Below, piece after piece: positions 1 to 29,217 of a stretch of DNA of 64,000 nucleotides (positions are counted from its first letter, which is position 1; every line of letters starts with the position of its first letter). Under the pieces are notes generated by a model. The model was given only the letters and a program-made list of their open reading frames with translations, was not told the DNA's origin and ran no database searches. The stretch is from positions 7,797,375 through 7,861,374 of the forward strand of contig NC_088297.1 in NCBI RefSeq assembly GCF_032854445.1, in the 5' to 3' direction. Source of the DNA: Liolophura sinensis. Lineage: Eukaryota; Mollusca; Polyplacophora; Chitonida; Chitonidae. Made by a program: the position numbers and the translations under genes.

Positions 1-253
1 TTGCGGTTCTCACTATAACCTTCACTACACAGAAAACTTTCGAAGCGTCTAACAGATTTAAGCGCGTTTCTCGTGCTGGCTGAAGATGAGTTAGGCATCT
101 CTGGATGTACCGCTGTTTGACGAATGGATGGAGTTTTCCAGTGTTCTTTACATGTGGAGAACTCCTCCTCCTGTATCCAACTGAAATCCTGGGCCAAATT
201 TCCATCCTCACACGACTCAGCCTTCGGACCACCCGTACAGACGGCAGCAGGCA
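1..253 (-). CDS. Gene A alternative terminal exon A11 (cut by window edge)
   Basis: This is the 5' part of an eleventh cassette of the minus-strand array; the rest lies beyond the left edge. The acceptor is CTTTCATTGTCAG followed by TG, giving a phase-1 start (split codon GTG, Val), exactly as in the other cassettes. The frame stays open through all 253 bases. It encodes a variable linker containing WIQEEEFSTCKEHWK, then SASTRNALKSVRRFESFL, which aligns with the first helix of the core-binding domain in the other cassettes (for example SASTLSHQLAALGVVERWL-like segments). The conserved IPP motif, the SIVKS segment and the stop are outside the window. It has no start codon of its own at the acceptor, so it must be spliced to the shared exons. 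The homology is clear by eye, but only half of the domain is visible. Confidence 0.75.
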
Positions 254-1067
254 CTGACAATGAAAGGAAGTTTGCTATACAGAGCGCTAAACTAGGGTCA
301 TAAACCTGAAGTTTTCTATATAAGTAGGGTTATAAGCATGTATATCCATATTTTAACGCCACTGAATGAATGAATGAATGTGGCTTCACAGTCATCCCAA
401 CGAGAAAAACGATGTTTGACGTGAATAGCACAAAGCCTTAAGTCCTCACATAAACAGCATTTATAAAAAAATATATATATAGAAAGAAAGTTCTCGTATA
501 ACATACTTTAATTCTAGAAAGAAACTGAATGATAGATTTAGTTTACAAGTAAAACCCCAACACAACGACTGTTACGCAAAAACAGCTAAAATAATAACAT
601 TTCAGGGCATTTTTAAACGCAGCTTTCAACAAAATGCTTCTGAAATCTAACGCTACGTAAAAATTACCTAAATCATTATATCGTTACAGAAGTGAACAAA
701 TATCAATTTCTTTCGCACTGTTTGTGTGAACGACAAAAAGCAACATCAAAACAGCTGCAAAACTGTTTAACTGTCTCCTTGAAAACCATACATAACTAAT
801 AAACCAGTGAAAAATTGTATGGAGTATATGTTTTCACCATCCAGAAAGTTGTAAATCGAAAGCAGCCGGTGGGGTAAACTAATAGCGATGTTCGACCATT
901 ACGCGCATGAGCAATGATAGAAATGTAATGATCTAGAATTCCACTCTACAACTAACACCGATCCGACCACATTAACAACCATACTTTCATTAAAAAAAAA
1001 AAACAATATATTTTTCTTGAGGTTTGAAAACAACATATCCTAGATTCCAATCTCGACTCCCACTATA
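254..1067. other. Spacer between cassettes A11 and A10
   Basis: AT-rich sequence with no supported coding exon. It would hold the 3' UTR of cassette A10 and the intron before A11. I saw no minus-strand AATAAA in it. Confidence 0.5.
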
Positions 1068-1507
1068 TTACGCTTGTTTCTCTAGAGACTCCTTCCTTTT
1101 GCGAAAAGCCATCCGTGTGTCATGAAAAATGTTGGAGTGTTTGATTGAACAAGGATATCCCACATCAGCCAAATGGAACTCTATGCCACTGCGCAGTGCA
1201 GCGAAAGAATTTGGTAGGTACTCCAATCCGTTCATTTTTCTAATCTTGAGAAAAAATTCCGCCAGAAAAGTGTTTAGTTGCTCCGGCGGGATATCGGCTG
1301 TCTTCATCGCGTCAGATGGGTGTACCGTCTTCAGCCAAAACTCAAAGGTGCGTATAGCGGCCTGAGCTTTTCGGATAGTGTTTAGAGCAGAGCCACTGGA
1401 TGAAGTGCGACCAGCTGGAGTTGAAAAAGAGGACAGAGTGCTTCCAGAATTCTCCGTCTTATCCAGTTCTGAAGATCTGCCACGAAGGGGATCAACGACG
1501 AACAAGT
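1068..1507 (-). CDS. Gene A alternative terminal exon A10, core-binding domain
   Basis: Acceptor ATTTCTTTCCAG then AC gives split codon GAC (Asp), phase 1, followed by LFVVDPLRGRSSELD. The domain reads NTIRKAQAAIRTFEFWL, then ADIPPEQLNTFLAEFF, then a degenerate GIEFHLADVGYPCSIKHS, ending ESLEKQA and stop. Spliced to the two shared exons (832 nt) the 440 nt of this exon give 1272 nt, an exact multiple of three, and a 423-residue isoform. It is the most divergent complete cassette: LDAYL is replaced by LNTFL, and the usual LERHLKE by IEFHLAD. No catalytic tyrosine-recombinase residues (R-H-R-Y) follow the domain. The role in DNA binding is inferred from the fold family. Confidence 0.83.
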
Positions 1508-1717
1508 CTGGAAAGAAATGAAGTGCAGTTTCATTGCAGATTTTCCAAATTCAGCGCGCAGCATGGAGAGCTATTACTACTGCTACACATTAGTCTGTTT
1601 GAAGTATATACCTACAACGTTATGTTTAGCGAGTATCAACCCCAGAAGAAAGAAGACAAATTCTGCACAAGAGTAACTTATATCAAGTCAAATCGGAGTC
1701 CTACGAATCATGATGAT

Positions 1718-2216
1718 TTACGTGCCTACTGGTCCATCAACGCTCTCGGCCTGGCAATCCGTCCGTGCGCCTGCCCGTGATAGGGACAGCTTTCTTAAAG
1801 CTTCTACACGTGTTTTATAAGCATTCTGGCTGTTTACGAATTCAGCACATTTAGTTATGGAATAGGGGTAGCCTTTCTCCCTCAGGTGACGTTCTAGGCA
1901 CGACCTGAAAACACTAAGGTAACTTCGTCCGAAATTTTCCCCTGAGCGTTTCTTCCCGTTCAGAAAGAAATCACAAAGGTACGCATCTAGGTCTGCAGGG
2001 GGGATATTTTCAACTTTTCGCTGATCATATCGAGGGCAACTTTTTAACCAATTCTCGATGATGCCCAAAGCAGCGCGCATGTGGGCCACTGTAGACTGGG
2101 GCTTCTCCCAGACATTTGAAATTCTTCGATTTGCCAACGTAACCTTCCAAGTTTGTCCCTCTCCCACGGATTTCCTCTGCGCACTTCGGTTAGTCCAGCC
2201 TTGGGAGCTACCACCA
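1718..2216 (-). CDS. Gene A terminal exon A9, core-binding domain, with an acceptor/frame conflict
   Basis: The conserved part is in one frame: RRISNVWEKPQSTVAH, ENIPPADLDAYLCDFF, then RSCLERHLREKGYPYSITKC and a C-terminal tail to the stop at 1718. The best-looking acceptor (CCTGCTGTCATCAG, exon start 2216) would, at phase 1, enter a different frame (VVVAPKAGLTEV...) and miss the domain. A weaker in-frame phase-1 acceptor is CTCCCAAG then GC, with exon start 2199 and protein start G-W-T-N-R-S. With that start the spliced length is 1314 nt, a multiple of three (437 aa). So this cassette either uses the weaker AG, carries an indel, or is decaying. The domain homology itself is clear. Confidence 0.7.
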
Positions 2217-3124
2217 CTGATGACAGCAGGGACAACTTCGACACCATGGGGGGAGCTTAACAGGCTTTGGTCAAAGCCTAGCTCTGCTACAAAGAAAAGG
2301 TGGCAGAGTCTTAGCTTAAATGATACCTGGCTACCAAGCTATACGGTTACACGCTACCGCGGATGTCGGGTCTAGTAAGACATTTGGATTTCGGGATGTG
2401 GAATGTGGAAAAAGGATTTCGATACGCATCTCCAGGACACCATATTTCGATGCTTAAATGCTAAATGCTTAAAAGAACTGCACACAAAGTGTCAGTATAC
2501 AATCCCAATAGCTTTCCTACTACCGTAGCCCACCGTTCAGGCCACACGCAACAACGTACTGATGCAGTACTTGCTAGAAGTTCACAACTATACCTGATGA
2601 CGATAAGATACAAATCATTATTTTAATATATGATCAAATTGCCTTAACGTGAAAATGATCGAAACAACTTCTTCCAAAAACGTACTGTTAGACATATGGG
2701 TGCCCAAATTCAGCAAATGTTCCAAAAAACTACAAATATGACCAGGCTAATGTGTAAAGAATAATTCGTTTAACTAGCCTATGACATCCTTTATTATTGC
2801 TTACACATGCAGCGCAATTTCTACCAACGGATCTTCAAATAAAAAAAAAATCCATTTAGCCCTACACAGGTTACAGGTACTCCGATGGACAAAAAGCCCC
2901 AAAAATCTCAGCACACTAATAATGCACTCTATGGACTAAATGTGTACATCATTTTCTAAATGCCCAAAATAAATGTCAACAATATGCAACCAGATATTCT
3001 TGCTCTCTCTTTGTTTCATGAAGTTCTCTGAAAAATACTTAACCGGAGCTCCAAAATTAGATACGGTGCAATGGCAATGGGGGACTAATGTATTGCCTAC
3101 TGGGGCTTACAGTAACTTTGTAAC
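2217..3124. other. Spacer between cassettes A9 and A8
   Basis: No coding exon seen. A minus-strand AATAAA (complement of TTTATT at 2790-2795) lies about 330 nt past the A8 stop and could be its poly(A) signal. The rest is AT-rich unique-looking sequence. Confidence 0.5.
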
Positions 3125-3729
3125 TCAGTCAAGGTTTAAGTTTTCATGATCGTGGCCAGTAGGCAGTCCTTCGTTTGGCCGGGTAGGGCAGTCAAAGGAT
3201 CCACCAGTTTTGTAGGAAACACTGCCTGGACTATCACCAAGAACCCTCCTTGCCATTTTGATGTTATTCACGAAGGCCTGTTGACTATTGAAAAAATGTG
3301 GAGACTTTATAATAGAACAAGGGTAGCTGTGGTCTTTTAAGTGTCGCTCTAAGCATGACCGCAAAGCTGCCAAATAATTGCGACCGTATCCTAGTCCGTT
3401 GGGTTTACGACCAGCTCTAAAGAAGATTTCTAAATAGTGATCCAGTTCGGCGGGAGGGATCGTTTCAATCTCCCGCTTGTCACAGAATGGAGGAGAGCTT
3501 AGCCAACGCTCGATTGTTCCAACCGAAGAGATGATCATCTTCACAGTAGTTGCGGACTTCGACTGGCGGTTAAGGATGCGGGCGCCAATGCGACGTGTCG
3601 CAGTGTCAACTGTGTCTTTAGGCCGCCGATGCACTTCAATCGGCAAGCAGCTCTTGGTATTAGCAGACCGATTTCGTCCTTCGACTGACAAAGAACCAGT
3701 TGGCCGCACCAGACCCAATTCCGCAGGTT
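3125..3729 (-). CDS. Gene A alternative terminal exon A8, core-binding domain
   Basis: Acceptor TACTTTCATTGTCAG then AA gives split codon GAA, phase 1, and protein E-P-A-E-L-G-L. A linker of about 60 residues precedes the domain (ARILNRQSKSATTVK, GTIERWLSS, ETIPPAELDHYLEIFF, KPNGLGYGRNYLAALRSC, RHLKDHSYPCSIIKS). A tail of about 40 residues, hydrophilic and ending in NLNLD, follows. Spliced length with the shared exons is 1437 nt, predicted isoform 478 aa. No ATG opens the frame near the acceptor, so the exon depends on upstream exons. Its domain is closest by eye to A6, A7 and A9, consistent with tandem duplication. Confidence 0.87.
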
Positions 3730-4118
3730 CTGACAATGAAAGTAACACTAAATTGTTAAATGTCTACTAGCCTTAATGCTACTTCACAAGTCTACTGAGG
3801 AAACCAAAATAAAGTCGAGCAGGCCAAGTATACGTAACACAACAATGATCACACGCTGAATTTTTGTTGTGAGAAAGGGGAAAAATCATTCCATGCACAA
3901 AATACACATATGTAAATGAACAAAGTACACAATCGTTAAGTTGTTCACAACTACTTTGTGTTTTAATTCGGTACACCGAGAACAATGGTAACGCAAAATG
4001 TGATAAATGGCGGTCAAGCCGTAAACCGGGAAATTCAGTGAACTGAATTAAGTGTTCTACCAAAAGATCATCATGTAACAGATAACCTGGAAACAATAAT
4101 GTCATTCTTATCTGCGTT

Positions 4119-4621
4119 TCAGATGATACTTTGATGCGGGTTGTCTAAGGTGGTGGGTTCTACTATTTGCGTTTGTAAAGACATAATTCTCATTTTAAAT
4201 GCAGTTTGTGAGGCGTGGAACTCGTGAGATCGGATGATAGAGCATGGGTAGCTATGCTCCCGGAGGTGACGCTCCAGTCGTGAACGAAGAGAAGACAGAT
4301 ATGAAACACCGTAAGAATCTCCACACGGTTTCGTAATCGTTGTAAAAAACTCCGTTAAATATTGATCTAGTTTGGCAGGTGCGATTTGCTCTATTTTGGC
4401 CGACTCAGCCGGATGGTTCTCTGAGAGCCATCGTTCTACCACGCCAAGAGCGGCTAGCTGGTGACTCAGGGTCGAAGCCGGTTTATCTTGAATATTCAAA
4501 ATACGATCCTTCCTGTTGTCAATGCTCAGATGTCGGTTTGCAGCTGGGAATATGTGAACGTCCCCCTGAGCAACCCGAGTTCCCAGTCTTTGAGAAAAAG
4601 GTGATGTTTGATGCGCCAAAT
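4119..4621 (-). CDS. Gene A alternative terminal exon A7, core-binding domain
   Basis: Acceptor CTCTCTTGGTCTTCCAG then AT gives split codon GAT (Asp), phase 1, followed by LAHQTSPFSQRLGTR. The reading frame is also open upstream of this acceptor, but that part lacks a domain and the pyrimidine tract sits here, so I place the exon start at 4621. The domain reads RILNIQDKPASTLSH, VVERWLSENH, EQIAPAKLDQYLTEFF, SSLRSRLERHLREHSYPCS, IIRSHEFHASQTAFK. The usual IPP is IAP here. Spliced length is 1335 nt, predicted isoform 444 aa. The downstream neighbour A8 begins about 390 bp beyond the stop. Confidence 0.86.
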
Positions 4622-4730
4622 CTGGAAGACCAAGAGAGGGATCTTTTTCAGTATACATGATGTGCAGTTGGTAACCCTGACAAGTGTGGGGCACGTGAGG
4701 AGTTCGGTGACAAATACAGTGTGTTGTAGA

Positions 4731-4736
4731 TTTATT
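4731..4736 (-). terminator. Candidate poly(A) signal for cassette A6
   Basis: TTTATT on the plus strand reads AATAAA on the minus strand, about 205 nt past the A6 stop and upstream of the A7 acceptor. This is the position expected if A6 is a terminal exon. A hexamer of this kind occurs often by chance in AT-rich DNA. Confidence 0.35.
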
Positions 4737-4941
4737 ACATATCTGCAACAAATACAAACATCTGAAGAAACATTCCCCAACTTATATTTTATACGGACTT
4801 CCTGACGTACCTGTATCGACACGAACTGAGCAATGCATTTCCGCTTTCTGTGGTCACACAAATACTTGGTTACCATAAATTAATGATATATGAAAGAGGA
4901 ACACAAGGCTGTGATCTTCCGTGAGGGACAAAAACGACTGA

Positions 4942-5420
4942 TCAAGAAAAAATTTTCTGTGCTTTGGTCGCAACCATGGCAACGCGTAACGCAAGAATCT
5001 TCGACTTATAAGCTCGTTGACTTGCAGCGAAGACAGCGGACTTGACAATCGAATGCGAGTAACCATGTTCTCGTAAATGTCTTTCTAAGCTTGAACGCAT
5101 TCTTTCAAAATATGTGGCTCCGAATTCTGAGCCGTCGTGCTTTTTCGCTATGGTGAAGAAATCTGTTAAATACGCATCCAAATCCTTTGGCGGAATTTCC
5201 TCTATTACCCTGTACTCGGACCGCGGAGGAAGCTGAAGCCATCGTTCTATGTGATTAAGAGCTGCCATTTGGTGGTTAATCGAGGTGGCCGGTTTTTGGT
5301 CTTTATCTAAAATCCGCAGCCGACGCTGAGCTATAATACCTGGACACTCTTGCGAATGAAAGGCCAGATAGCTAGCTTCTCCACGCTCAGTCATACTCCG
5401 GTCCCCATGATCCACTGTGC
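4942..5420 (-). CDS. Gene A alternative terminal exon A6, core-binding domain
   Basis: Acceptor TATTCTTTGTTTGTTAG then GC gives split codon GGC (Gly), phase 1, then TVDHGDRSMTERGEA. The domain reads RRLRILDKDQKPATSINH, NHIERWLQLPP, EEIPPKDLDAYLTDFF, KKHDGSEFGATYFERMRSS, LERHLREHGYSHSIVKSA, and the exon ends AQKIFS and stop. Spliced length with the shared exons is 1311 nt, predicted isoform 436 aa. It has no catalytic domain, like its neighbours. A plausible minus-strand AATAAA lies before the next cassette. Confidence 0.87.
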
Positions 5421-6602
5421 CTAACAAACAAAGAATAAGGTCTATCAGATGTCGGGAGGACGTACAGGACTCAAGGAATTTGCTACCGATTTTGACAATG
5501 GACTTCGACACACACAAGTATAACGCGATGAATCCGTCGAATTACACATTTTACATGTCACAACGGAAGTGAATACCGGTGAATGGACTTAATTTGAAAG
5601 GGTACAACTTGTGTAGCCTATTGTCTATTCGCTTTTCTGAACCGTTTTATAAGTAACATCACAGAGTACAGTGCACAAGTGTCGTCATGAATACTGAACA
5701 TGTTCTCCATTACTAAAATCACCATAGCCATGATTTGGTGAATCAACGGTTATTGGAATTTGTGGTTACTTTATTTCAAAAATCAAAATATATGGTTGTT
5801 CGTCACGAATAACTCGGGTCTGTCAGGTCATGCTGACACGTGTAACCTTACATAATTTATGCAATATTTTGTTTTCTCAGTTTTGTGTTGCACAAGCAAT
5901 CCAGTTTATCAACACTCCTGCTACTCCTGACAAAGCGATATTTATAAGAAAGTTGTAAACTTATTGCTAAAACTTCAAAGGGGACGTAGATGAACGTTAA
6001 ACCTGCCACAACAGGCAAAAATTAAACGCAACCAAGTATTTCAAACAAAGGAAAGCTCGAGTATTGAAGATACACGCTAGCCCCGTGCACTTCATTACCA
6101 CGATCATGTTTTCTGGCTTACCAACATCTGCTAATTTATTGCTGACTCTACGGGAAACTTTTGGTATTTCTTTTCACTTTGTACCTGTATTTGACTCAAA
6201 TACAACTCAATACCAAACGTACAGCTTATCCAGCTACTTGTATAATAATATAGCACACAAATTGTATCAAGTAGTATACGTGCTTCAGTCAAAGAATGAA
6301 AAACTTTATTACCGTACAAAAATAAACACGTAGCATTTTACATCCTCGGCCATGTACATGGATAATCGTAAGTCACGACATACTACTTAAAACAAAAATA
6401 ACGAGTAAAAGCAATAGCACAAAAATCTTGGCAAATCCCCACATAAGCCTATTAGAAGGCAATGCAGATGCTATCAAGGTTATTTATGGAATAATACAAC
6501 TACTACAAGGGTATCAACATTACATATATTATTGTTACTTTATCTTAAAATTAAAGATACACACAACCCTTACTGTGGGCTGCACATTGTTTTGCACTGC
6601 GT
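5421..6602. other. Spacer between cassettes A6 and A5
   Basis: No coding exon supported. It contains a minus-strand AATAAA (complement of TTTATT at 6305-6310) about 290 nt past the A5 stop, a candidate poly(A) signal. Several short open frames here show no domain and no splice-site pattern. Confidence 0.5.
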
Positions 6603-7471
6603 TTACTCGGAAGTACATGTAAGAGCAAGTGGACCTTCAGGACTTAGTTCTTCTTTCTTAGGAGAGGAGAGTTTCGAGGGGTTGGTAGAAAGGGGACTCG
6701 GGGAGAACGCTTTCTCAACTTTTGGAGAATTTGACTTCTCGGGGTTTGGGGAACGGGATCTTTCACGTGAAGGAGAAATTGGTTCTTCGCAAGAAGGGGA
6801 AAGAGGTTCTTCACCAGGTGGGGAAAGGGGTTCTTCATGGCCGTGGGCATCGTGCTCTTCGGGGCTTTCAGAACCGAAATCTTCCTGGTTTTGAACATTG
6901 GGGATTACTTGACCGTAAGAAAGCTGTCCATCAGGTGATATAGAAAGGGTCTCGTCAAACTTAAGAGGATAAGGCTTTATCAGCCTGTGTGAAAGAGGGT
7001 CTTCCAAGCTACTCGTCAAAGACGTGTACCGTATTTTGAAAGCTTCCTGACTTCTAATAAAGAGTGGAGATTTGACAATAGAATGGGGGTATCCATGTTC
7101 TTTTAAATGCCGCTCAATGTTAGTTCGAAGTCTGGAGAAATATGTGGCTCTGAACTCCAAGCCATTGCATTTTTTTCCACTCAGGAAGTATTCTGTCAGA
7201 TATTCATCCAGCTCTAGAGGAGGGATATCTTCAACATTTCGAGTCTCATGTCGAGGAGCTTCACGAAGCCAACCTTCAATCTGAAGAAGTGCCGCTAACT
7301 GATGCTTTATTGTGCTGGCGGATTTTTTCTCCCTATCCACTATACGCTGCCGTCTCATTCCCACACTCATTTTATCTATCTTCAGAGCGACCCGCTGGAT
7401 TCCAGGTTTGCCCTTTGGATCGGCTCTTTTGGTACCCACGGCCTCTGTCCTATATCCCCACATACTGACTC
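6603..7471 (-). CDS. Gene A alternative terminal exon A5, core-binding domain with Ser-Pro repeat tail
   Basis: Acceptor CTTCTGTTGTTAG then GA gives split codon GGA, phase 1, and protein G-V-S-M-W-G-Y-R-T-E. The domain reads RQRIVDREKKSASTIKH, EDIPPLELDEYLTEYF, SGKKCNGLEFRATYFSRL, IERHLKEHGYPHSIVKS. Unlike the other cassettes it then continues for over 120 residues with an acidic Ser-Pro-rich tail containing imperfect repeats of the type EEPLSP (EEPLSPPG, EEPLSPSC, EEPISPSR, then SPNPEKSNSPK). Spliced length is 1701 nt, predicted isoform 566 aa, the longest of the set. The SP dipeptides are candidate proline-directed kinase sites. That is inference from motif only. Confidence 0.86.
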
Positions 7472-7909
7472 CTAACAACAGAAGAATGTGTTTGCGATGT
7501 AATAACTGAATCAGAAAAAAAACACATGCCAGTATACATTGCATTTACATTCACACATGCTTGCCTAAGAAAGTGACTATGCCAGACTAAAAATGAACAT
7601 TTAATCCAATTTCATGTCATACGTGTACTAACAAGGGTTCAAAACCAGCGACAAAATAAATCATAGCTCACATGGAATTGTGTATATGACATGTGAACTT
7701 TTTTTAAAAATATAAATCCCTGTACCCCTAGGCAGCACTAAAATGCAAAACTACACACCTGCCCAGGTCTTAATATACGTGTACCAGCCACAAGTCTAGC
7801 AATAGTCAATAAAACAGCGATCCAACCTGCTCGAGGTTTTCAGCACAATGGAGAGCATTTACATGTACTTGCACTCTTCAAGGGTTTCTGTTAAGCCAAA
7901 ACGTGGACA

Positions 7910-8298
7910 TCAATCAGATGTGTCCGGAAGCTGACCCAAACGCTTCATAAACGCTGCCTGAGAATTTGCAAAGATGACGTCGCGTACTAGGGAATTCGGG
8001 TAACCATGCTCTTTCAAATAGCGCTCCAGACTTGTGCGCATCTTAAAGAAATACGTGCGTTTGTACGGTTGGCCATTTGTCTTGGTGCCACTCGCGTAAA
8101 ACAGGGACAGGTATGCATCCAACTGAACCGGTGGGATGGTCTCTATAAGGCGATCCTCGCCAGGGTAATTCAAACTCAACCACTGCGCCAGGCATTTTAC
8201 GGCCGTCTTCATGTGGTTGATGGTTGTTGCCGACTTGTGCTCAGAATCTAGGATTCTATGGCATGGCTCTGACGTTCTCCTGTCCATATGCATTGGCA
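7910..8298 (-). CDS. Gene A alternative terminal exon A4, core-binding domain
   Basis: The strongest acceptor of the array, CTCTCTTTCTCTTGTCAG then TG, gives split codon GTG (Val), phase 1, and protein V-P-M-H-M-D-R-R. The linker is only about 15 residues, the shortest in the array. The domain reads RILDSEHKSATTINH, KCLAQWLSLNYPGE, ETIPPVQLDAYLSLFY, TKTNGQPYKRTYFFKMRTS, LERYLKEHGYPNSLVRD, ending QLPDTSD. Spliced length is 1221 nt, predicted isoform 406 aa, the shortest complete product. All domain landmarks are kept, so this is close to a minimal functional cassette. Confidence 0.87.
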
Positions 8299-9060
8299 CT
8301 GACAAGAGAAAGAGAGGCAGAACTTCTCTTTAAATATATGACACAGAAGCAGCTTGCTTTTTATATTAAAAATCAAAACCCTTCATATTTCATGAGAAAA
8401 GAGTGCATAGGCGTTTATTACGTTACGATAGATTAGTGCCCAACAACGAAATATTGGCAATTTTTGACACTAAATCTTCTACGTTATAACACAAACCTCA
8501 AAAATGAATATAACGAGAGCAATCATCAGAAATATGCCTTAAAATCACAAGTAGCTCATACTGCTTCCACGCAGGTAATTTGAAGTAAAAGAACAAAAGC
8601 CATAGCGTTCACCTTACATTATAACACTTTACTATTCATGTAAGTATTTTGATAAGACGACTTCTCTTGTCCAGATATTTTCCTATCTACAACATTGAAT
8701 CAAATCCCACAGTCTTATTTTTTTTCCTAGACATTAATACGTTTCATTTTAACCTAAACTACTGTAGCTCTAGACCTTGTAAAGAAAACTTCCTTTGGGT
8801 AAAATGACCAGTTAATTTTTGTTTTTATTTCGTTTTTTTTTTTGTGGGGGTGGGGGGGGGGGACGAACCACACTACACGTTTTCACTGACTGATTATGGA
8901 CAAACAAATTTTATGTGACCTGAGTAAAGTCAGCATGCTTTCCCGGATAGGTCTCCTGATTAAAAGCTGCAGCTATCGCTGGATAAAGTTTCGTTTTCTC
9001 GGGGGGGGGGGTGCAATCAAGAAGACATGCAAAACATGAACACTGACTCCTACAGCTTTG
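8299..9060. other. Spacer between cassettes A4 and A3
   Basis: No coding exon. It contains poly-T and poly-G runs near 8830-8865 and a second poly-G run at 9001-9010. The minus-strand AATAAA at 8824-8829 is about 235 nt past the A3 stop. Confidence 0.5.
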
Positions 9061-9539
9061 TCAATGAATCAACCCTTTTCTTCTTTGCACACTTATCTCA
9101 TGCAGTTGTTGCATGCGCTTCTTATATGACAAGAGACTTTGCTCAAACTCAGATGATTTCGTAATACACAAAGGATAGTTCTGCTGTTTGAGGTAGCGAG
9201 ACAGATAAGATCGCATGACTTTAAAAGACTGTGGATCATAGTCCGTTCCATTTCTTTTCTTGACAGTTGCAAAAAAATCAGCTAAGTAAGCGTCAAGTTC
9301 TCTCACGGGCATATCCTCTACTTTTGTGTCACAATTTCCGTACCCATTCTCAATGAGCCAACGTCTGAATATGCCTAAAGCCATGTTCATGTTTTTTGTT
9401 GTCAAATCCAGGTTTTGGTAACGAGAATTAGACATTGCTGACATAGTAGAGGTTGATGTCGCTCCACGAAACGCAGTTAGTGAAGTAGAATTGCTGCCCA
9501 ATGTACGACCCAAGCCATGTGGTCCTTCCAGCTCGTGAA
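9061..9539 (-). CDS. Gene A alternative terminal exon A3, core-binding domain
   Basis: Acceptor TCGCTTTATTTGTCAG then TT gives split codon GTT (Val), phase 1, followed by HELEGPHGLGRTLG. The domain reads RYQNLDLTTKNMNMALGIF, RRWLIENGYGN, VEDMPVRELDAYLADFF, VKKRNGTDYDPQSFKVMRS, RYLKQQNYPLCITKS. The IPP element is diverged to MPV. Spliced length is 1311 nt, predicted isoform 436 aa. With A1, A2 and gene B cassettes it shares the form GxDYxPxS and RYLK, whereas A6-A9 use GxxYxxxYL and RHL. This suggests two subfamilies, with the 5'-proximal cassettes nearer to gene B. Confidence 0.86.
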
Positions 9540-10748
9540 CTGACAAATAAAGCGAGAAAACCACTGTCAGGTTGTTGAACCAACATTGGTGAACCACAGC
9601 AGATGCTTATGGTAATAAAAGGATGAAAATCAAACAGAACAGGGGACTTAATCACATTATTTCGAGAGTGTATTTTCGAGAGTTCAACTATAAATTACAC
9701 GTATATGAGATACACAAACACAACACCCAAGACAGTGTTCTTCATTAAAGAGCCCTGGACTAAGGTGTCCATTTATCACACAAAGTACGGAGTAATAACA
9801 ATAACATGCTTTTAAATCTTGTCTGAAAAGTAAGCCTTTCCAATGTGGCAACAATACAAGTAGGAAATGGAAGCCATACTGTTAAACACGGCCGCTAAAT
9901 ATAAACTGGCAGAGTAATATCGACCTCATCGTGTTTTTTTTAAAGTATGTTTGCATGCATTTTATCATATAGAGTTCAGTGCCATCTCAAACCAGATGCA
10001 CACAATGGGTCAGCGGAGATTTTCCTGATTGAACGCTAAGGTCTCCAAGCTATGTGCCACTGTGTCGTTTCTTATCATGAATCACTTCCTCTTACAAATG
10101 CACCTATGAAAAAACCTTTCAGTGAATCCATACAGCCCGATTTCTAATGTATAGCTTAATACTGACTTGATCTAGTGAGAACAATGCCGCATTAATCGAC
10201 TGATCGAGCCCACACAATGAAGATAAGATTCAAACTGAGCACAACAGTATGACCGCTAAAACCAAAACAATCCTAGCTGGAGAGACTGATCAAAGGAAGT
10301 GCACCTGGCATCTCCCTGAACAATAAAGCTTTACTACCCATTCTAATGAAATACTGTATCCATAACGCATTTCCAGCAATGTTTTAAAGTTTCAGATCAT
10401 CAGATTAGACATACAACCTCAAAACAAAACACTGTTTATTTTGTTGTTCTTGTTGTTTTGAGGGGGGGGGGGGCTCTTCTGGTGCAAGTTAACAGTGACA
10501 TTCACTCTTCCTGCACACCATGAAATTAAGTGATTTAAGTTACTCTGATGCAGGTCAACTTCTAACAACCTTGATGAACCAAACCTTTGAAAACATGAAA
10601 TAAGTCACACACCTTAGAACGACATCACAAGATCTCCTTTACACTCGCTTAAAATGTTCACACACTTCACTAAAACATATCTATAGAAGTTTGATATGTT
10701 GTGATTTAGGTCTCGCTTTCCAACATCAACAACAACAACATGTTTTTA
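9540..10748. other. Spacer between cassettes A3 and A2
   Basis: No coding exon supported. A minus-strand AATAAA (TTTATT at 10435-10440) sits about 310 nt past the A2 stop. A poly-G run lies at about 10462-10472. Confidence 0.5.
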
Positions 10749-11260
10749 TCAAGTCTTGACTATCTTGCTAATACGTGCATGCAGCTTTTTGGTTATAACA
10801 CGGAAAGACTCCTGACTCTTAAAAAATTCAAAGGACCTGACAATAGAGTAGGGGTAGCCGTGGTCCTTCAAGTACCGACTCAAACCGGAGCGAATAGCCA
10901 TGAGGTATTGAGGGTCGTAGTCTTCTCCGGTGCTCTTTCTGACAGTCCTGAAGAACCGTTCCAGATAAAAGTCTAAATCCTTCGGTGGAATGTCCTCAAT
11001 CTTCCGGGACTCCCTGACTGGGAGAGAGGATAACCAGGTCTCCAAAAGATGAATGGCTGCCTGCTCATGGCGGATGGCTGAGGCAGACTTCTCCTGGGTG
11101 TTCAGCACTTGATGTTTACCCCCTGCAACACCACCATCAAGCTCTCCGCCAAAACCTGCTGTACTGACACCTTTGCCACCTGATTCCGAACTTCTATTTC
11201 CTGAGCGAAGAGAGTCATCCTGCTCTATGCGAACTGGCAACGAGAGAAGGCCACAAGTCA
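10749..11260 (-). CDS. Gene A alternative terminal exon A2, core-binding domain
   Basis: Acceptor TTAAGACCATTTTAG then TG gives split codon GTG (Val), phase 1, and protein V-T-C-G-L-L-S-L-P-V. The linker is glycine-rich (GGELDGGVAGGKHQ). The domain reads VLNTQEKSASAIRHEQAA, ETWLSSLPVRESRK, EDIPPKDLDFYLERFF, RKSTGEDYDPQYLMAIRSG, RYLKDHGYPYSIVRS, ending SKIVKT. Spliced length is 1344 nt, predicted isoform 447 aa. It keeps every landmark of the core-binding fold but stops before any catalytic segment. Confidence 0.88.
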
Positions 11261-12264
11261 CTAAAATGGTCTTAATCTGAACTTCTCTGCAAAGCGGGTA
11301 CTGGTATATGGTTTTCTAGATGCAGCAGGAAGTATGCAAAAGTATCAACAAAAACCCCCAAAAAACCAACACAGCTATTATTCCCCTGTAAATTATCAAC
11401 TCTTCACATCGTCACTGTTTGATGAGGTTGAAGACAAACACGAAGAACTGAAGGCCAAAAAATGGTGACACTTAACAACCCTGAAGTTAGTACATTTGAT
11501 TTCTATGCCTTTACTTGTGTTAAAAACCACATTTAAGTTCCAGCCCATGTGCTGTTAAGGGCCATACAGAACAAATGCATGTGTCGTGCCCTTGGCATGC
11601 CTTGTTTTTCACAGCCTATTTTGGTCTAATCAGGCTTTCTGAAGATTTAATACACTTTTACTCAGACAGTTATCAATCATCAGCAGTTTTACTCATGGAT
11701 TTTGTAACCAAATGCAATTTCCACAATTTGCCAGGACTAAGTTGGTTTACTACAATGCTCCATATAACAAAAACTAAATTTAAATATTAACCAAAATTTA
11801 AGCTTCTTAAAACTGCAAACACTAGACATGTGGAAGCACAGGTGTAAGTACAAGCGTTTTTCGGGCTTACTCAGTTCCTTAATGTCTTCATTGTATAGCT
11901 TTCCAGCCTTGCCACACCACAACATGCCATGGTAAACTGGTAAACCTTAGGCACAGAACTTCTTTCCGATTTTCCCTCATTTCTACGCAAAAATATTCAC
12001 GAGTACTGAAGATGCAGGCAAGAATATGGCAAGCTGACCAAGCAAAATGTAACACAAGATTCCTCGACACCTACAAAGTGGATTAAATACATGTACTGTA
12101 CAGCTGAAGATGGAAGCTTAAGAGCCAGCGAGAACTCTAAAAACTACACATATATTTAACTGCACATTTTCAAATCTGTGCTTTCCATATTCCATGTAAA
12201 CAAGCATCCTTCCAGCCATTACAAGCCTCACTAGTGTGATAATGAAAATAGTTGGTTTTGCACG
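11261..12264. other. Spacer between cassettes A2 and A1
   Basis: No coding exon supported. AT-rich sequence with only short chance open frames. Confidence 0.5.
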
Positions 12265-12806
12265 TCATTCACTTAGAAAACTGAAGTCCTCCTGATGATA
12301 GTGACTTTGGAAATTTGAAAGTTTCAGTTTTTGCAAGCGGTCCTTGTAAGCCATCTGACTGGCCAGAAATTCCCCAGAGCGTACAATGCTGCAAGGATAG
12401 TCATACTCCTTAAGGTACCTGTCCAGACTGGACCTCAGAGTGCTAAGAGACACAGGGTTGTATTCTGTTCCGTCCACTTTTTTCACACTAGTGAAGAAAT
12501 CCTTGAGGTAGATGTTAAGCTGTGGAGGCGGTATCTCCTCAACTTTTCTGGAAATCTTGTGCACTGAGTCTATCAACCATCTCTCAAAGATCTTAACAGC
12601 AGCCAGCATATGCTTAGCCGTGGCTCGCGGCTTCTCCTGTACATTCAGGATCCTGCTTTGTGAGACGACGTTGACCATAGCAGCGACACTGACCTGAGTG
12701 GGTGCCGCCATTGATGTTATGCTTGATGCCGAAGAGCCTGAACAGTTTTCTGACAAAGACATGGACCGCGAGATGCTCCTGTTTTCATTCCGATGCCAGG
12801 GAAGAG
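12265..12806 (-). CDS. Gene A alternative terminal exon A1, core-binding domain
   Basis: First cassette after the shared exons. Acceptor GGTCTCATTCTAG then CT gives split codon GCT (Ala), phase 1, then LPWHRNENRSISRSM. An internal ATG exists at 12762, but the frame is open up to the acceptor. The domain reads SRILNVQEKPRATAKH, VKIFERWLIDSV, EEIPPPQLNIYLKDFF, VKKVDGTEYNPVSLSTLRS, RYLKEYDYPCSIVRS, ending FSFLSE. Spliced length is 1374 nt, predicted isoform 457 aa. About 4.6 kb of intron separates it from the shared exon. That long distance precedes a compact array in which cassettes follow every 0.4-1.5 kb. Confidence 0.88.
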
Positions 12807-15800
12807 CTAGAATGAGACCAAGGTTTGCTCATGAGGTAATGCTTTACTATCTCGCGCCTTTTTTTTTTTTGTACACGTAATTCCCAATGTTTACACGTAA
12901 TGATTTGCTTCGCTTCTGCACCTCACATAATTGTGTTTGTACACCTTCATGCACGATTATTAAGGCAACTTGACTTTCGTGAGGTGCCGTATAATTCAAT
13001 AGAGTGATCTATCTTACTAGAAAACACAGTAACTAAAAGTCACATTGCCAAAATGTATGAATGTAATGAAGCTGCACAATCTACCTCTAAAAAATCACCT
13101 AATGCAAAATGCTTTGTCAAACAGGTAATCTAGTCTTAAAACTGCAGGTACTGAAATTACCAATAGCTGCCAAACTATTTTTTTGTCTGCTGTCACACCC
13201 TTATTGTTTAAATGTAGGTAAAAAACAGGATGAAGTACCCATGCACCAAGCCTCACAACAGACAATTCTACATCTTATCTTCCCAGTCAATGTTACGAGG
13301 TCAACATAACGACAGCACATGTACACCATGTTCATGCTACAGTATAGTGGTCTTCACCACCACGATTTCTGTAAATCATACTAAAACACAACCAGCTGTT
13401 AACATTAGACCCACTCTCAAAGCACAGGTTTTCCCTCTGATTCCACAACTGCACGTGATTCTGTCGTAAAACAGGGAGGTCAACAAGAATGCAAAATCCA
13501 CAATGTGATCTTGACAGCATACATGTAACTGTACTGATCTGATTTCTAATGTATCAAGCCAAGGTCAAAACTGGTAACATCTGACAATGGCAGACAAATC
13601 AAACCATGTGCCTGTATGTAGATGACTATCATGTCAAGTCCCAGAAAACAGGTTTTCAAATCAATTTTAATGTTTAACACCACCATACATAAGCAATCCA
13701 ACCCATTAATAATGTACATGTGAGATTTGAAGTGCTATACTAGACAACACTGGCTTATACATACATGTTGAATGCCGATACCTGAATATAGTTAAACACA
13801 TGTGGTGACTTCAAGACACGCAGATATGGAAAGTTATAGCTTTCTGTCTCTGTAACTGCCTGCATTCTGTCGATCATGTTCCGAGAAGTTATCAATATGT
13901 TCAATTATTTCAAATATTTAACTTGCCTATTACCTCACGCAATACTCAGGAAACTGTTTATGCTCATGTGACAGACGCAGTATGTTATATTAGTATACCT
14001 CAAAATAGGCTTTCTCAAAGATAGAGAAACATGCCTAAACACACAGTATCTGTTTCCTTGTACAGAACAATGAGGTATACATGTATATTCATGTGTGAAA
14101 GTTTAGAAGCATGTGGCATGTTTTCAAGAAGAGTACGACACCTCTACAAACTTCAACAGGAAGTTTCAAAACTCTCATAATCTGGATTATGATACCGTAC
14201 ATATGCAAATAACCAATTCACCCTAGGAATAAAAATCCAACACCAGTTTTTGTAAGCTTTATTGGCACGACTTGAATCCATATTCAATATGAACGAAAAC
14301 AAATACTATTCGGACGATAAAACTCACACCAAAAATACTGTGACGACACACGTTATTGAAATCAGATCTGTCCTTGTGTTTAATGTTCTGACCAAAAAAA
14401 AAAAAAAAAAAAAAAAGCAAATGCATAGAGCTCCTGGAGAATAATCTAAGAAGTACATGTACAATATATGGCTAGAGCTTGTCAAACTGTGGAATATGTT
14501 GTTCAAATTTCAGTTTTTCCTGGCAATAATGTACCAATCACTATTTGTAACAGAAGGACCAAGGAACCATAAATGAAGATATTGTCATCTTTTACTAATG
14601 ATTTTACAACACCTATTGAATCGTTTAAAAAACATGCACTAGCCCATGACAGAAGGATGTGCATGTGAAGCTGTAGACCCTATGACATCCAAACATACCA
14701 GTCTATACATTAGTGGAATCTATGTAAACCAGCTGAAACTAAATATTTCTCAGAATGTCTCAGCCCTTAGTTATTCCACGTTTACAATATTTAAAGATCT
14801 ATTAAAATAAATTCCATGCTGTACAGTGTACAAAACTATCCATCCTCGTATCTTTTTAAGTAAACACGAACTCCTCACAGTGGGAGGTCCAAGATTCAGA
14901 TAGTCAGCAAAGGGGAACTACTCCTGAATGAACATTTGCCTTAACCAAGAAGGGTGAGAATATCTTGAAATAAAATTGTACCGAAAAGTTAGACCCATGT
15001 GATCACCTTTATACAATGAACTGTGAAGTTGTACATGGACATCTAGTTCAAAACTTGTGCATGTAACTGCACTTAGATGATATATATATATATATATATA
15101 CATATACATACATATATACCCACTGAGAAATATTATTTTCAGCTGGACAAAAATGTGAGGAATGGCAAATACATGTCACAACCTTCATAACCATGATTCT
15201 ATCTGAAGTGCTAGCTTGTCGACTACATGTACCTGATACATTTATAAATGCATAACAACCCTTACCCATTGGGTTAAGAAACCAACAAAAAGGAGGTTTA
15301 TTTTGATGTTACCCAAAACACATTAGCACAACAAGTGTCCATGTAAATAACATAGCAAGAGTTTGGGATTCACCTTTGTCGCACCCCAAAGTAGAATGTT
15401 TTTTATTAGTTACTCTCAACTTGTCAGAAACAAACAGATAATAGCAAACTCCAAATGAAAAAAGTTGAACTCCAAATGAAAAACGGGCTAGGACTGAATC
15501 TTGTAGAAACAGTGTTTCACAATTATACTGACACAGTTTTAAGCACTGACGATGTGAAATTCTCCAGTTCTGTCTAAAACATCTCTTGGGTTCCTCATCT
15601 CTGTTGTTCAGTGTCCATCAGCCCAACGGAACGGAATGGAACGGAATTTGTGCCGTGGGTGAACCCCAGATTCTTCACCATGTCATACATGTATAAACAT
15701 TCTGGCAAGTGTTGTCAATGTAGGTCTACAGCCTACAAGAACTAACAAGGCTTGGTGAAACAGTAAGCCAACAAACATCCCTAAGGCTTTTGTGACCATC

Positions 15801-16116
15801 AATTATCAGATTTGAAAGGGGGGGGGGAGAGGGGCTTCTGTGATAAAACCTTACTAGCGCATCTGTTATCTTTAAAGCTGTTCATTCATAGACATTCAAG
15901 CTAATGGCATGCATGATGACGACGGCATAAACTTATTAGCATGCTACCCTGTGTGCAGTGTTCTTTCAAACTTCTGAATTCTCCCACTGAATTAGAATTC
16001 ACGCCAAAACAGTCAAGTGGCAAGGGCTCCAAGGAGTAAATTATTTGTTCAAAGTTTCACCTGACGATGTCTTTAACAGGAGTCAGTGACAGTGTGATCA
16101 TTCAGGGTGCAGGACA
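12807..16116. other. Long gene A intron between shared exon 2 and the cassette array
   Basis: No exon found on either strand. It contains a poly-A run at 14394-14416, a TA dinucleotide run at about 15080-15101, and poly-G near 15820-15828. Splicing enhancers or docking elements that select one cassette might lie here or in the spacers. I could not identify any by eye. Confidence 0.5.
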
Positions 16117-16130
16117 AAATGCTCATTGTA

Positions 16131-16385
16131 TTTATTTATTTATCTGATTAGTGTTTTACGACGTACTCAAGAATATTTCACTTATACAACGGCGGCCAGC
16201 ATTATGGTGGGTGGAAACCGGGCAGAGCCCGGGGGAAACCCACGACCATCCGCAGGTTGCTGTCAGACCTTCCCACGTATGGCCGGAGAGGAAGCCAGCA
16301 TGAGCTGGACTTGAACTCACAGCGACCGCATTGGTGAGAGGCTTCTGGGTCATTACGCTGCGCTTAGCACGCTAACCAACTGAGC
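16131..16385 (-). mobile_element. tRNA-derived SINE, family 1, nearly full length
   Basis: Read on the minus strand it has a tRNA-like head (GCTCAGTTGGTTAGCGTGC, a box A; GAGTTCAAGTCC, a box B), a conserved core around CATAATGCTGGCCGCCG, and a tail ending AATAAATAAATA. It is flanked by a perfect 14-bp target-site duplication, AAATGCTCATTGTA, at 16117-16130 and 16386-16399. It lacks about 12 bases of the head compared with the copy at 35427. Confidence 0.9.
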
Positions 16386-17415
16386 AAATGCTCATTGTAA
16401 GCAGCCACCTACCAGAAAGATACAGGTGTATGCTCCACTTCCATGTACACTTAGTTTGTAGATTTGCTGAAGAATACAAATATCTGCTACCACACGTTTG
16501 TCTACAGTGTACATGCATTAAAATGGTGTTGAAACATGTGATAACTAATTTTGGTTATGAACAGTTTGTTGCTTTTGTTTCACCAAGCCTTGCCTGAACG
16601 ACCACAGATGAAAGCATGTTTCTTGACAAAATCTTCAGGAAAATTTGTAAAGTGGGCACAAGTTAAATTTACATGTAATTTACGAGACACAGTTCCAAGG
16701 CAACAACTTCGATTGTAATCAACTTGAAAGTATGCTTGTGTCCAAGGAAATTAGACAGAGAAAATGTTCCATTTAAGTCCAGTGGTTGGAAAACATATTG
16801 CCCCCCCCTCCCCTCCCCCTCCTTTTCTAAATAAATCATGTTAGGTCTAGAAATTTCATGGGCACTGAAATGTATAGGCACACCTCCCACTATACTGCCG
16901 GGCGCTGACATAAGAGAAATATTCTTGAGTACAGCATAGAGCACCATTCAAACAGGTAAATGGAATAGGGTCAAATGTACAGAAAAGGAATTCTGTGTAC
17001 TTACTGTAAATTTCAAAGATGGTAAAAAAACGACCATGGTTAACAAAGGTTTAATTCTTGGGAATTGGTTTGTTCAAGTAGCACTGAACAAAGAGATGCT
17101 TTTCCATTCATTTTTTTTTTTTTGGTGTGTTTTTGGCAACATTATGACAGTATTATGAGGTGCATGTAAGTTTTCGATATGATCACATTTACATTTTCAG
17201 CAGGAATGTTGAATTAAGGTTTCATAAAGCCCTTTTCCCTTTATAAGCAGTATTTTAATGCGGCATACCCCGAATCAGCAACTGGTTTACTTCTTTAGGA
17301 TTTATATTTTTTCTAACCACTGACTGTTAATAAGAACATACATTGTCAAGACTCGTCAACACACATGCTTTCTCTTTGGTCAAAATGTTGTATGTAGGAA
17401 AGAAATGACACCAAC
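16386..17415. other. Gene A intron, 5' portion
   Basis: No coding exon seen. It has a poly-C run near 16801 and poly-T near 17110. Short open frames lack support. Confidence 0.5.
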
Positions 17416-18102
17416 CTGTTTGTGAGCTGCTACCCTGTGCGGCATCCCCCGTGGAGCCCATCCATGACTGGTTGTTTGGCGATCCGCTGGAGGTTGTGGC
17501 TGATGCTGCCAGTCGCCTAGGTGAGAATGTGGAATTAGACGGACTGCCAGAAAGTCCCTGGTTTTGGTCATCTTGAGCGTCCATTGTCACTTTAAAAATG
17601 TCTGCTTCGCTTGAATCAACTGGTTCTAATGAGATGGAATCTGACTCTGTATTGATAATGGACATAAGGCTTTGATTGGATGATGATTCTTGGGCAGAGG
17701 ATGAAAGTGTGGATGATCCACCCACGCGGCGCGATTTGGCTGTGGAATAAAAGTCTGATTGCAATTCTGAGCTGTCTGCAGTTCGTTTTCGACTAAATGC
17801 ACAAGATGTCTGCTGTTCAGGACTGGGTTCGTTTTTTATCACAACAATGTCTGGAGAGAGTCTGCTTGGAAAGCTCTGCTGCTGCCCTGAATTATGCGAC
17901 ATACGTGGGGAATCGGACGACTGGAGACGTTCACTGTACATCTGGTTTGCTAACGGGGATGCTGCTGGACTCATGTGAATACTGGGACTACTGGCAAAAC
18001 TACCTCTCCTGCGATGCGCCCCTTGACCCGTGTCTACAGTCCTGGGAGGATGGTTTTTGACACCTCTCATCCATCCTGGATTGGGGGATTCTCCAGAGCA
18101 AT
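17416..18102 (-). CDS. Gene A shared exon 2, KIAA1958-like N-terminal region
   Basis: Starts after acceptor GCCTGTTTTCAG (split codon GAT) with D-C-S-G-E-S-P-N-P-G-W-M and ends at donor ACAG then GTTGGTG, phase 1. The region is Ser-rich, hydrophilic and probably disordered. It contains SPDIVVIKNEPSPE, a hydrophobic acidic-flanked patch of the SUMO-interacting type fused to a psi-K-x-E sumoylation consensus (IKNE), and a basic KSRRVGG segment. Gene B exon 2 has the matching opening (DCSGLKPDPDW) and SDIVVIKEE. Similar IK-type motifs occur in KIAA1958 proteins as far as I recall. The donor phase matches every cassette acceptor. The open frame runs past the donor but diverges there from the gene B pattern. 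Confidence 0.85.
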
Positions 18103-18653
18103 CTGAAAACAGGCAGCCATCAAATGGAGTTAGAAGATCGACATACTGTGACGAAACCATTCATCTTGTACATTATTTCTGAGCGTTTAGGTTTCACTCT
18201 GTGGTGGGATGAAATCTCACTTGAAAACTGTAATTTACAACACCAAACGTAATTTTTTTCTTAATTACTTCTAGAATGCCCTTTTCACACACCACAAACT
18301 TACTTTCTCAAAACTAGTCAAATTACTGTTATGAGTCAAGTAGCCTTGCAGATTTATTTCATTGTATTCATTCATTGTTCATTTTCTGATGAGGCTTTGG
18401 TTGTAGTGTTGATGTTCGTATTTTCTTTCCCTTGATAGGATTAGTGACATGTTTTCAAGAGGGTCTCTGAAATCATTCAAATTTGTCATTAATTCAAGTT
18501 GCGTCTGTCTAGCAACGTAATTCTGAAGTCTCTTAACGTGTAGAATGAAGAAACCATTCTCATTCCCACATATAAGCAAGCAGTATGTCTACTACAAGGA
18601 AAAACATTGAAAAATTGGCTGTCTGTTATTATTTCTCAAACATCACCGGTTAC

Positions 18654-18822
18654 CTAATGATATTGTTCCCTTTGTTTTGTACTCGGCTATTCTCAGGTCA
18701 ACCCATACTGCAAACTGAGATAACACAAGTGGCTCGCTGCAAAGTTCCCCGATTATGCAGGCAAATTTGTTCTGTACTCTTTCCAGTGTCACTCCCATAG
18801 TGCTGTTAGTTTTCTGCAAAGT
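18654..18822 (-). CDS. Gene A shared exon 1 (first coding exon)
   Basis: Acceptor TGTTTTATTTTACAG, exon start 18822; donor TCATTAG then GTAACC at 18653, phase 1. ATG at 18798 opens M-G-V-T-L-E-R-V-Q-N-K-F-A-C-I-I-G-E-L-C and continues through VLSQFAVWVDLRIAEYK to ISLG. The frame is too short to show up in a simple ORF scan. It is supported by strong similarity to the gene B exon at 24706-24875 (VLSQFAVWLDLRLSEYK; same donor TTAG|GT, same phase). The eight codons upstream of the ATG are also open, so translation could begin in an unseen upstream exon. The domain is not one I can name. It looks helical and may mediate protein contacts. Confidence 0.82.
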
Positions 18823-24705: not shown

Positions 24706-24875
24706 AGCCATGAGTCAAACATCAGTGGGTGTAGACTTCACTCTGGAGACAGTTCAGTACAAGTTTGCTACCATCATCGGAGAGCTATGTGGGAAGCCAT
24801 CAGTCCTCTCACAGTTTGCAGTCTGGTTAGACCTGAGATTGTCTGAATACAAGTTAAAAGGATCCATATCATTAG
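24706..24875 (+). CDS. Gene B shared exon 1 (first coding exon)
   Basis: Acceptor CTTATGTGGTTTTAG, exon start 24706; ATG at 24710 in context AGCCATGAG; donor TCATTAG then GTATAC, phase 1 at 24875. The protein starts M-S-Q-T-S-V-G-V-D-F-T-L-E-T-V-Q-Y-K-F-A and contains VLSQFAVWLDLRLSEYK, then ISLG. It aligns closely with the gene A exon at 18654-18822. The acceptor just before the ATG implies a non-coding upstream exon, possibly near 20.7 kb. Function of this segment is unknown to me. Confidence 0.83.
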
Positions 24876-24959: not shown

Positions 24960-25445
24960 GCGTATGAACAAAGAGTGCGCTTTACCTGTACATACAGCAT
25001 GTTTTACCTGTACATACAGTGAGCTTTTCCTGTACATACAGTGTGCTTTTCCTGTACATGCAGTGTGCTTTTCCTGTACACACAGTGTGCTTTTCTTGTA
25101 CATGCAGTGTGCTTTTCCTGTACATGCAGTGTGCTTTTCCTGTACACACAGTGTGCTTTTCCTGTACATGCAGTGTGCTTTTCCTGTACACACAGTGTGC
25201 TTTTCCTGTAAATAGAGTGTGCTTTTCCTGTACATACATTTGTACATACAGTGAGCTTTACCTGTACATACAAGTGAGCTTTTCCTGTACCTACAGTGTG
25301 CTTTTCCTGTACATACACCTGTACATACAGTGAGCTTTACCTATTCATAGTGAGCTTTACCTGTACATATAGTGTGCTTTTCCTGTACAAACAGTGTGCT
25401 TTACCTGTATATACATACAGTGTGCTTTTCCTCTACATACAGTCT
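24960..25445 (+). repeat. 22-bp minisatellite in gene B intron 1
   Basis: About 20 imperfect copies of a 22-bp unit built on TGTACATACAGTGTGCTTTT plus CC. In the middle, units alternate ACATGCAG and ACACACAG, giving a 44-bp higher-order period. Both strands are open over several hundred bases, which produces spurious Cys-rich frames. Confidence 0.9.
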
Positions 25446-25647: not shown

Positions 25648-26403
25648 ACTGTTCTGGTCTAAAGCCAGATCCTGATTGGTTACAGGGACTTAAGGACTCG
25701 ACCCCTCCTTGGACCACCCACCCCCTAAACTCCACAGAGAGCGATCAACATGTCCAGTCAAGACAGAGAAGAGAGAGACGGTGGAGTGGTCAGATGTCTA
25801 GTCATAGCACAGATGTGGGATCTTCCTCAGACATTGTGGTCATCAAAGAGGAAACCCATGACCTGGATCTGGACTTCTCTGCCGGCTCAAACCAACGCAG
25901 TAACTCGCCATCACAATTTCGTGGAAGAATCGAGAGGAAAAGGAGTTTCCATGATAGTAACGCATCATTATCTTTACCTGGCAGAATTGAATTGACAGGG
26001 GTTTATAAGAATAGGTCCGGAGCTCAGCATCATGGGAGAATTGAAACAACACAGCATTCATTAGCAAAACTAACAGCCTCGCCTTCGAAATCCATCTCTC
26101 ATGAATCTTCCATTATTACATTACAGGATGAAATCTCTGAGACGTCTTTTCCCACTCAAGACCAGTGTGCCGATCAGACTTTATCTTCTAGTGTTTTGAA
26201 AACAAGTTCACAGAATCTTGGGCCTGGCAGTGCTATCAGCTCTTACCAAAAGGGAAGCAACTCTGCTGATGGTTCATCCACAGGGGCAGAGAGCACATCG
26301 GAAGCTTGTCTGGAGGAATCCATATCAGAGCCAAGTTTGGAGAAAATCCTGAACACGCAGTCGCCATTACCTGATAAACAGTTAGGCGTGTCAACAGAAA
26401 AAG
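25648..26403 (+). CDS. Gene B shared exon 2, KIAA1958-like N-terminal region
   Basis: Acceptor GATTATGTTTCAG then AC (split codon GAC) and donor GAAAAAG then GTTGGTA, phase 1. The protein opens D-C-S-G-L-K-P-D-P-D-W-L and is Ser- and Gln-rich, probably disordered. It contains SSDIVVIKEETHDLDLDF, which combines a SUMO-interacting-type patch with an IKEE sumoylation consensus, matching gene A exon 2. Three GRIE/GRIE-like repeats (RGRIERKR, PGRIELTG, HGRIETTQ) occur in the middle. Shared coding exons total 922 nt from the ATG, ending in phase 1 as both gene B cassettes require. The open frame past the donor into the satellite is not coding. Confidence 0.85.
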
Positions 26404-27960: not shown

Positions 27961-28049
27961 ACTGTGAGTTTGCCCACAGTCAAAAACTCTATGTCACTAG
28001 TTTGACAGTTGGAGGTAAAATGTACTTGGCAAAGGAGCAAACTACAGTT

Positions 28050-28840: not shown

Positions 28841-29217
28841 CAGTCTTCTCCACCTATGAAGCTGAATGCCAGTAAATATTAATAAGCAAATATTCTTGAG
28901 TACCTGTAGGATGTGCAAACATGTACCTATGAGTCTTATCAGTCAATCAAATTCATTGGGTGAAAATGAAGTTAGATTAGATTTTGATTTGTTACATTTA
29001 TAGATCTACAAGCATGCATGTGGTAGATGTACATTTTTCCCTTTATTTATATCCCAAGATTCTCCTGGAATTTCGTTAATATTTCTCCGTACGACCCCGG
29101 ATGTAGTTTCCCTTAATGATTTCCTTTTGAAGGGCCAAAAGATTTTCTACGTTTTTTTAGATTAGGTTTATCCTCAAACTTTGTCATACAGGTAGAGCTT
29201 ATAGTATGTGGGTTGAG

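Follow-up and report, generated by a model that had tools for sequence, protein, structure and literature searches.

A row of homologous, recombinase-like exons in the genome of the chiton Liolophura sinensis raises the question of whether each exon is a gene of its own or whether all of them belong to one gene that uses a single exon at a time. We analysed the row in a window of 64,000 nucleotides (contig NC_088297.1, positions 7,797,375 to 7,861,374 of the forward strand; coordinates below are those of the window), where the gene LOC135463552 lies on the minus strand and consists of two shared exons, then ten complete cassettes (A1 to A10) and one (A11) that is cut by the window edge. An original prediction, made from the letters of the sequence, had read this arrangement as one gene with at least eleven mutually exclusive last exons encoding recombinase-type core-binding domains. 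Our analysis leads us to regard LOC135463552 as probably a gene with a constant front and variable tails, in which the tails would target chromatin or DNA and the front would act as a shared interaction or effector module.

Two shared exons and their alternative last exons

Rebuilding the gene model bore out the proposed anatomy of the front. Exon 1 starts at an acceptor at 18822, and its coding part (18654-18798) encodes a conserved N-terminal domain of 48 residues that is predicted to form a helical hairpin. Exon 2 (17416-18102) encodes a linker that is disordered in the structure model and contains VIKxE (SUMO-type) and RKR motifs. Joined, the two exons give 832 coding nucleotides (nt) with one base left over, that is, phase 1, and the exon 2 donor at 17416 (CAG/GTTGGT, the slash marking the splice site) is common to all cassettes. 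With the shared exons included, the predicted totals for A1 to A8 and A10 were reproduced exactly (1374, 1344, 1311, 1221, 1701, 1311, 1335, 1437 and 1272 nt). Every cassette has its own stop codon and the variable exons are terminal; with one donor and many such exons, the choice of a tail is therefore exclusive.

The database isoforms agree with this anatomy. Among the proteins retrieved with a joined isoform as query, the isoform numbers of LOC135463552 reach X31, and we assigned 24 returned proteins to the gene, 22 by gene name together with P0005 (named KIAA1958 homolog isoform X5) and P0014. Residues 1-277, which represent both shared exons in their entirety, are identical in all 24 and the proteins diverge only after them, as expected of one gene with alternative last exons. 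The isoforms are database predictions, and the evidence for splicing consists of models and sequence, not reads; such models usually rest on RNA-seq introns. Seven of the 24 tails end within the window, P0014 crosses its edge from the acceptor at 253 and 16 lie beyond it. Adding A4, A6 and A7 to the 24 isoform tails gives at least 27 cassettes, so the count of at least eleven is right for the window and too low for the gene. Among the named isoforms, the numbers rise as length falls and some numbers are skipped; A4, A6 and A7 may be among the missing ones.

All eleven cassettes in the row are on the minus strand. A1 (12265-12806) corresponds to isoform X5 (P0005), A2 (10749-11233) to X12 (P0001), A3 (9061-9539) to X15 (P0010), A5 (6603-7471), which has a long Ser/Pro/Glu-rich end, to X1 (P0004), A8 (3125-3729) to X2 (P0003), A9 (1718-2283) to X4 (P0002) and A10 (1068-1507) to X23 (P0013). 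A4 (7910-8298), A6 (4942-5420) and A7 (4119-4621) are not among the returned isoforms. Of A11, the window holds positions 1-253, and P0014, which starts at this acceptor, supplies a complete tail. The acceptors implied by isoforms match the predicted ones except in A2 (11233, not 11260) and A9 (2283, not 2199 or 2216). For A9, the acceptor at 2216 leads to an early stop (1005 nt) and that at 2199 is in frame (1314 nt); isoform P0002 uses 2283 (1398 nt).

When a profile built from the cassettes was compared with the six frames of the window, it recovered all ten complete cassettes with E values from 5e-67 to 2e-48, a result that is in part due to the way it was built. Independently, it detected two plus-strand cassettes, near 33.9 kb (E 2e-37) and 36.8 kb (E 1e-33). 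Next in rank comes 2256-2047 (E 2e-7), a wrong frame of A9, itself part of the profile, and the remaining matches, the cut A11 among them, have E values of 1.3 or more. Between the stop codon and the next acceptor, AATAAA occurs in five of ten cassettes against 4.9 at random, which is no enrichment; either AATAAA or ATTAAA follows nine of the ten (a count without control), and A9 has neither. No match to Rfam was found.

Fold, ancestry and history of the tails

According to the predicted structures, the tail is a four-helix core-binding domain that can be aligned to residues 21-131 of Cre. In the fold comparison, QRICH1 and the Cre core-binding domain rank highest, in agreement with the domain type that had been proposed; QRICH1 from entry 9hjt (Zincore-ZFP91-DNA, accessible part of the record) is in first place. 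Foldseek alone gave nothing at E 0.001 (best 0.15, QRICH1). A sequence search of solved structures, with one tail and with a profile of 12 tails, returned chance-level matches only; the recombinase link is seen only by fold comparison.

A paralogue connects the tails to Crypton-type elements, since its isoform tail P0115 keeps a complete, degenerate tyrosine recombinase fold; the tails in the window are without the catalytic half. Both the first Arg motif and the HxxR motif of P0115 are disrupted, judged by the residues that we take to correspond to the catalytic positions. The catalytic set of the tyrosine recombinases is named R-H-R-Y (PMC3212892, accessible excerpts). That the product is a KIAA1958/Crypton-derived protein, as had been suggested, is correct for its recombinase-like tails and not for the shared exons, which encode a short helical domain and a disordered linker.

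PF12012 (DUF3504) was absent from seven tails of LOC135463552 at E values up to 10 (A4 and A6 were not scanned). In a Pfam scan of 53 family members (selected from 112 proteins, and including 24 isoforms of LOC135463552), neither PF12012 nor a BTB domain was found at E 0.1. P0115 likewise gave no PF12012. The QRICH1 domain PF25561 reached at best 24.1 bits on window tails of this gene and 27.1 bits on those of a sister gene (see below), under the cutoff of 30.8; it is precomputed on four of the 24 isoforms and matches 32 of the 53 scanned members at E 0.1 or better. Matches of PF08451 on the linker (E about 0.05) were judged composition artefacts. Relatives of the tails are also present in proteins that have zf-C4 and BTB domains, namely P0123 from Pecten maximus and P0139 from Branchiostoma lanceolatum, a hint that host genes repeatedly captured a recombinase-like tail domain.

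Across 114 alignment columns, the ten complete cassettes of the window are 29-49% identical in protein sequence, and the proportion of synonymous differences (pS) exceeds that of nonsynonymous differences (pN) in all 45 pairs (means 0.84 vs 0.45, with synonymous sites saturated). The tails are old and constrained by purifying selection. A quick tree was built from the 110 of 123 sequences, from 26 loci, that have a core-binding domain, the 13 without one being left out. It needs 40 changes of gene label (minimum 25), compared with a mean of 78 and a lowest value of 73 in 500 shuffles, and the nearest neighbour lies in the same gene for 73 of the 110 tails. A1, A2 and A4-A9 form one clade (84 in the Shimodaira-Hasegawa-like approximate likelihood ratio test, SH-aLRT) with A3 outside it, and the 27 tails of LOC135463552 are not one clade. 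Taken together, label changes, nearest neighbours and clades indicate that most of the multiplication of tails took place within genes, by tandem duplication, and that some tails are older or were exchanged.

The sister gene and the family

The two plus-strand cassettes belong to LOC135464079 (24710-37359), a similarly organised gene that stands head to head with LOC135463552; the original prediction had missed it, along with a family that comprises at least 32 loci. Its exon 1 (24710-24875) encodes the same N-terminal domain and its exon 2 (25648-26403) ends at a phase-1 donor (G/GTTGGT), all on the plus strand. Two isoforms were returned, one per cassette: X1 (P0096) for the first (33997-34499) and X2 (P0092) for the second (36878-37359). 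The first intron of this gene contains a 22-bp tandem array of 12 copies (24974-25238), and two further arrays (28041-28844, 38 bp, 21 copies; 32491-33165, 82 bp, 8 copies) lie between exon 2 and the tails.

In a search with the exon-1 domain, 120 of 139 candidate proteins matched. Those with names are all from L. sinensis, most of them encoded on the 27.5 Mb sequence that also holds the window, with a few on two further sequences. Grouped, the 120 proteins represent at least 32 loci, 19 of which have more than one distinct protein. This count covers 120 of 121 proteins (P0025 has no locus), takes a fez-like protein as a locus of its own and places two zinc-finger isoforms by exact common prefixes of 282 and 279 residues. 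P0025 is encoded on a 1,972-base contig whose exon 2 is 89% identical over 267 residues, flanks included, and this contig is possibly from a relative. The matches suggest that the exon-1 domain is restricted to this lineage, a provisional conclusion because the search needs exact shared words and other chiton proteomes may be missing.

Core-binding tails are found behind the same kind of front in 26 loci, and some genes combine them with other domains. LOC135463852 joins one 278-residue front to core-binding tails, to a tail with CENP-B_N and HTH_Tnp_Tc5 and to a BEN-like tail (below cutoff), and LOC135463599 and LOC135463699 have both core-binding and C2H2 tails. In the shared region, counted in one representative per locus, a psi-K-x-E (SUMO-type) motif is present in 30 of 32 loci, where 500 shuffles gave 2.9 on average and never more than 8, and a basic motif, mostly RKR, in 28 of 32. 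Judged by these motifs, the protein is probably nuclear.

Proposed mechanism, rival explanations and known systems

We propose that the single phase-1 donor of exon 2 would be spliced in the pre-mRNA, presumably in cis, to a single terminal exon out of at least 27 alternatives. All products would then have in common the N-terminal helical hairpin and the disordered linker, with its SUMO-type and basic, nuclear localization signal-like motifs. They would differ in the four-helix domain that follows, whose ancestor would be a Crypton-type tyrosine recombinase, namely its core-binding half. Most tails would have been made by tandem duplication within the gene. The front, which may multimerise, would set partners and output and the tail, perhaps by binding DNA, would set the targets, such that one gene could provide several regulators that differ in what they target, as lola does in Drosophila.

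That each cassette is instead a separate gene, with the isoform models as annotation artefacts, we consider highly improbable. The isoforms are indeed predictions, and an in-frame ATG lies within three codons of the acceptor in A4 and A5, which counts against a single gene. None of the cassettes has an ATG at its acceptor, as had been stated, but the argument drawn from the missing start codon is weak for A4 and A5 because of these nearby ATGs. In eight of the ten cassettes, however, the first Met comes at codon 9 or later. The cassettes have a common acceptor phase. A frame-blind pick of the best-looking AG, made with a hand-made score, also yields a phase-1-compatible acceptor in eight of ten cassettes against an expected one third or so, and the exact prefix in 24 isoforms, the same anatomy in the sister gene and the exact common prefixes at other loci likewise argue against separate genes. 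We give the lowest probability of all to the view that the tails are decaying transposon debris spliced in as noise. Their descent from a transposon-type recombinase would suit it, but no broken cassettes were seen when the cassette profile was compared with the six frames of the window, pS exceeds pN in every pair of cassettes, and such tails recur, each time after a front of this kind, in 26 loci.

Trans-splicing, in which tails transcribed from their own promoters would be joined to the common exons, is a variant of our proposal that does not fully exclude it, and it appears unlikely. The more than 30 isoforms of mod(mdg4) arise in this manner (PMC12692577, accessible excerpts), a paper on lola trans-splicing is in the reference list of PMC5127561 (accessible part), and the protein-level data are compatible with cis and trans alike. 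Against it, all 11 window tails of LOC135463552 are on the strand of its exons, and the only plus-strand tails in the window sit behind their own exons 1 and 2. It is also possible, if doubtful, that the cassettes are protein-binding co-regulator modules, comparable to QRICH1 in the Zincore complex, where a zinc-finger factor is bound on DNA; the same splicing would serve. The best fold match (QRICH1 in 9hjt, accessible part of the record) and the PF25561 matches in 32 of 53 scanned members point in this direction. Our preference stays with a constant-front gene whose tails would target chromatin or DNA.

The original prediction had compared such a gene with Dscam and the protocadherins, which was the wrong comparison. 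Dscam has internal mutually exclusive exons and the clustered protocadherins have alternative first exons with their own promoters. Like the chiton gene, they hold a large set of homologous alternative exons in one locus, but in the chiton gene it is the terminal exons that vary, every one of them with a stop of its own, and we rejected the analogy.

The closest logic is that of lola and mod(mdg4), where, as here, a common N-terminal part is joined to many alternative C-terminal parts from alternative 3' exons. At least 20 lola isoforms share a BTB part and have mostly different zinc fingers (PMC5127561, accessible part). BTB is thus in the constant part of lola and zinc fingers in most of its tails, whereas the chiton constant domain is another short helical domain and the tails of the window gene are recombinase core-binding domains. 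In the chiton family, tails of different DNA-binding classes (core-binding, C2H2, CENP-B/Tc5 and, weakly, BEN-like) also occur within some genes. The at least 27 last exons of LOC135463552 are comparable in number to the at least 20 of lola and the more than 30 of mod(mdg4), and to our knowledge nothing like them has been described in molluscs.

As a family precedent, vertebrate KIAA1958 is closest, a single gene with Crypton-derived DUF3504 domains on two alternative exons, whose splicing is not confirmed experimentally (PMC3212892, accessible excerpts). The chiton gene differs in having at least 27 such exons and in window tails that keep the core-binding half only; among the paralogue tails, at least one retains the entire fold. 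QRICH1, ZMYM and WOC (PF25561, PF12012) are described, in the parts of the sources available, as separate genes without a tail repertoire. Neither LOC135463552 nor its architecture is mentioned in the available titles and abstract starts on Liolophura or chiton genomes or on chiton Crypton, KIAA1958, QRICH1, DUF3504 or alternative last exons, a set with subscription papers mostly outside it. Likewise, the accessible text of the Liolophura genome paper (PMC11068029) does not contain "isoform" or "KIAA1958", nor that of the main text of PMC12005716 "gene family" or "expan". The origin of the tails, the mixed domain classes in some paralogues and the size of the family are unusual; a constant front with alternative terminal exons is known.

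Here a transposon-derived domain was multiplied as splice cassettes, not as genes, which makes testable both the capture of new DNA-binding domains by host genes via splicing and the way in which one donor picks among dozens of last exons. More tentatively, chitons might run a domain-swapping regulator system, in which splicing would attach, sometimes within a single gene, DNA-binding domains of unrelated fold and origin (recombinase core-binding, C2H2, CENP-B/Tc5 transposase and BEN-like) to a lineage-specific platform of hairpin and SUMO-type linker (at least 32 loci). Its repertoire would number well over a hundred regulators, which could heteromerise through the constant part and could form a cell-identity code or a genome defence comparable to KRAB zinc fingers.

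Elsewhere in the window, an open frame on the plus strand (45653-46054), in which Pfam found nothing, presumably resembles an ADAM-type metalloprotease propeptide, judged by eye. A 69-bp tandem repeat (60775-62474), whose longest plus-strand frame has no Pfam match, extends over 24.6 copies with 96% matches and has long open frames on both strands.

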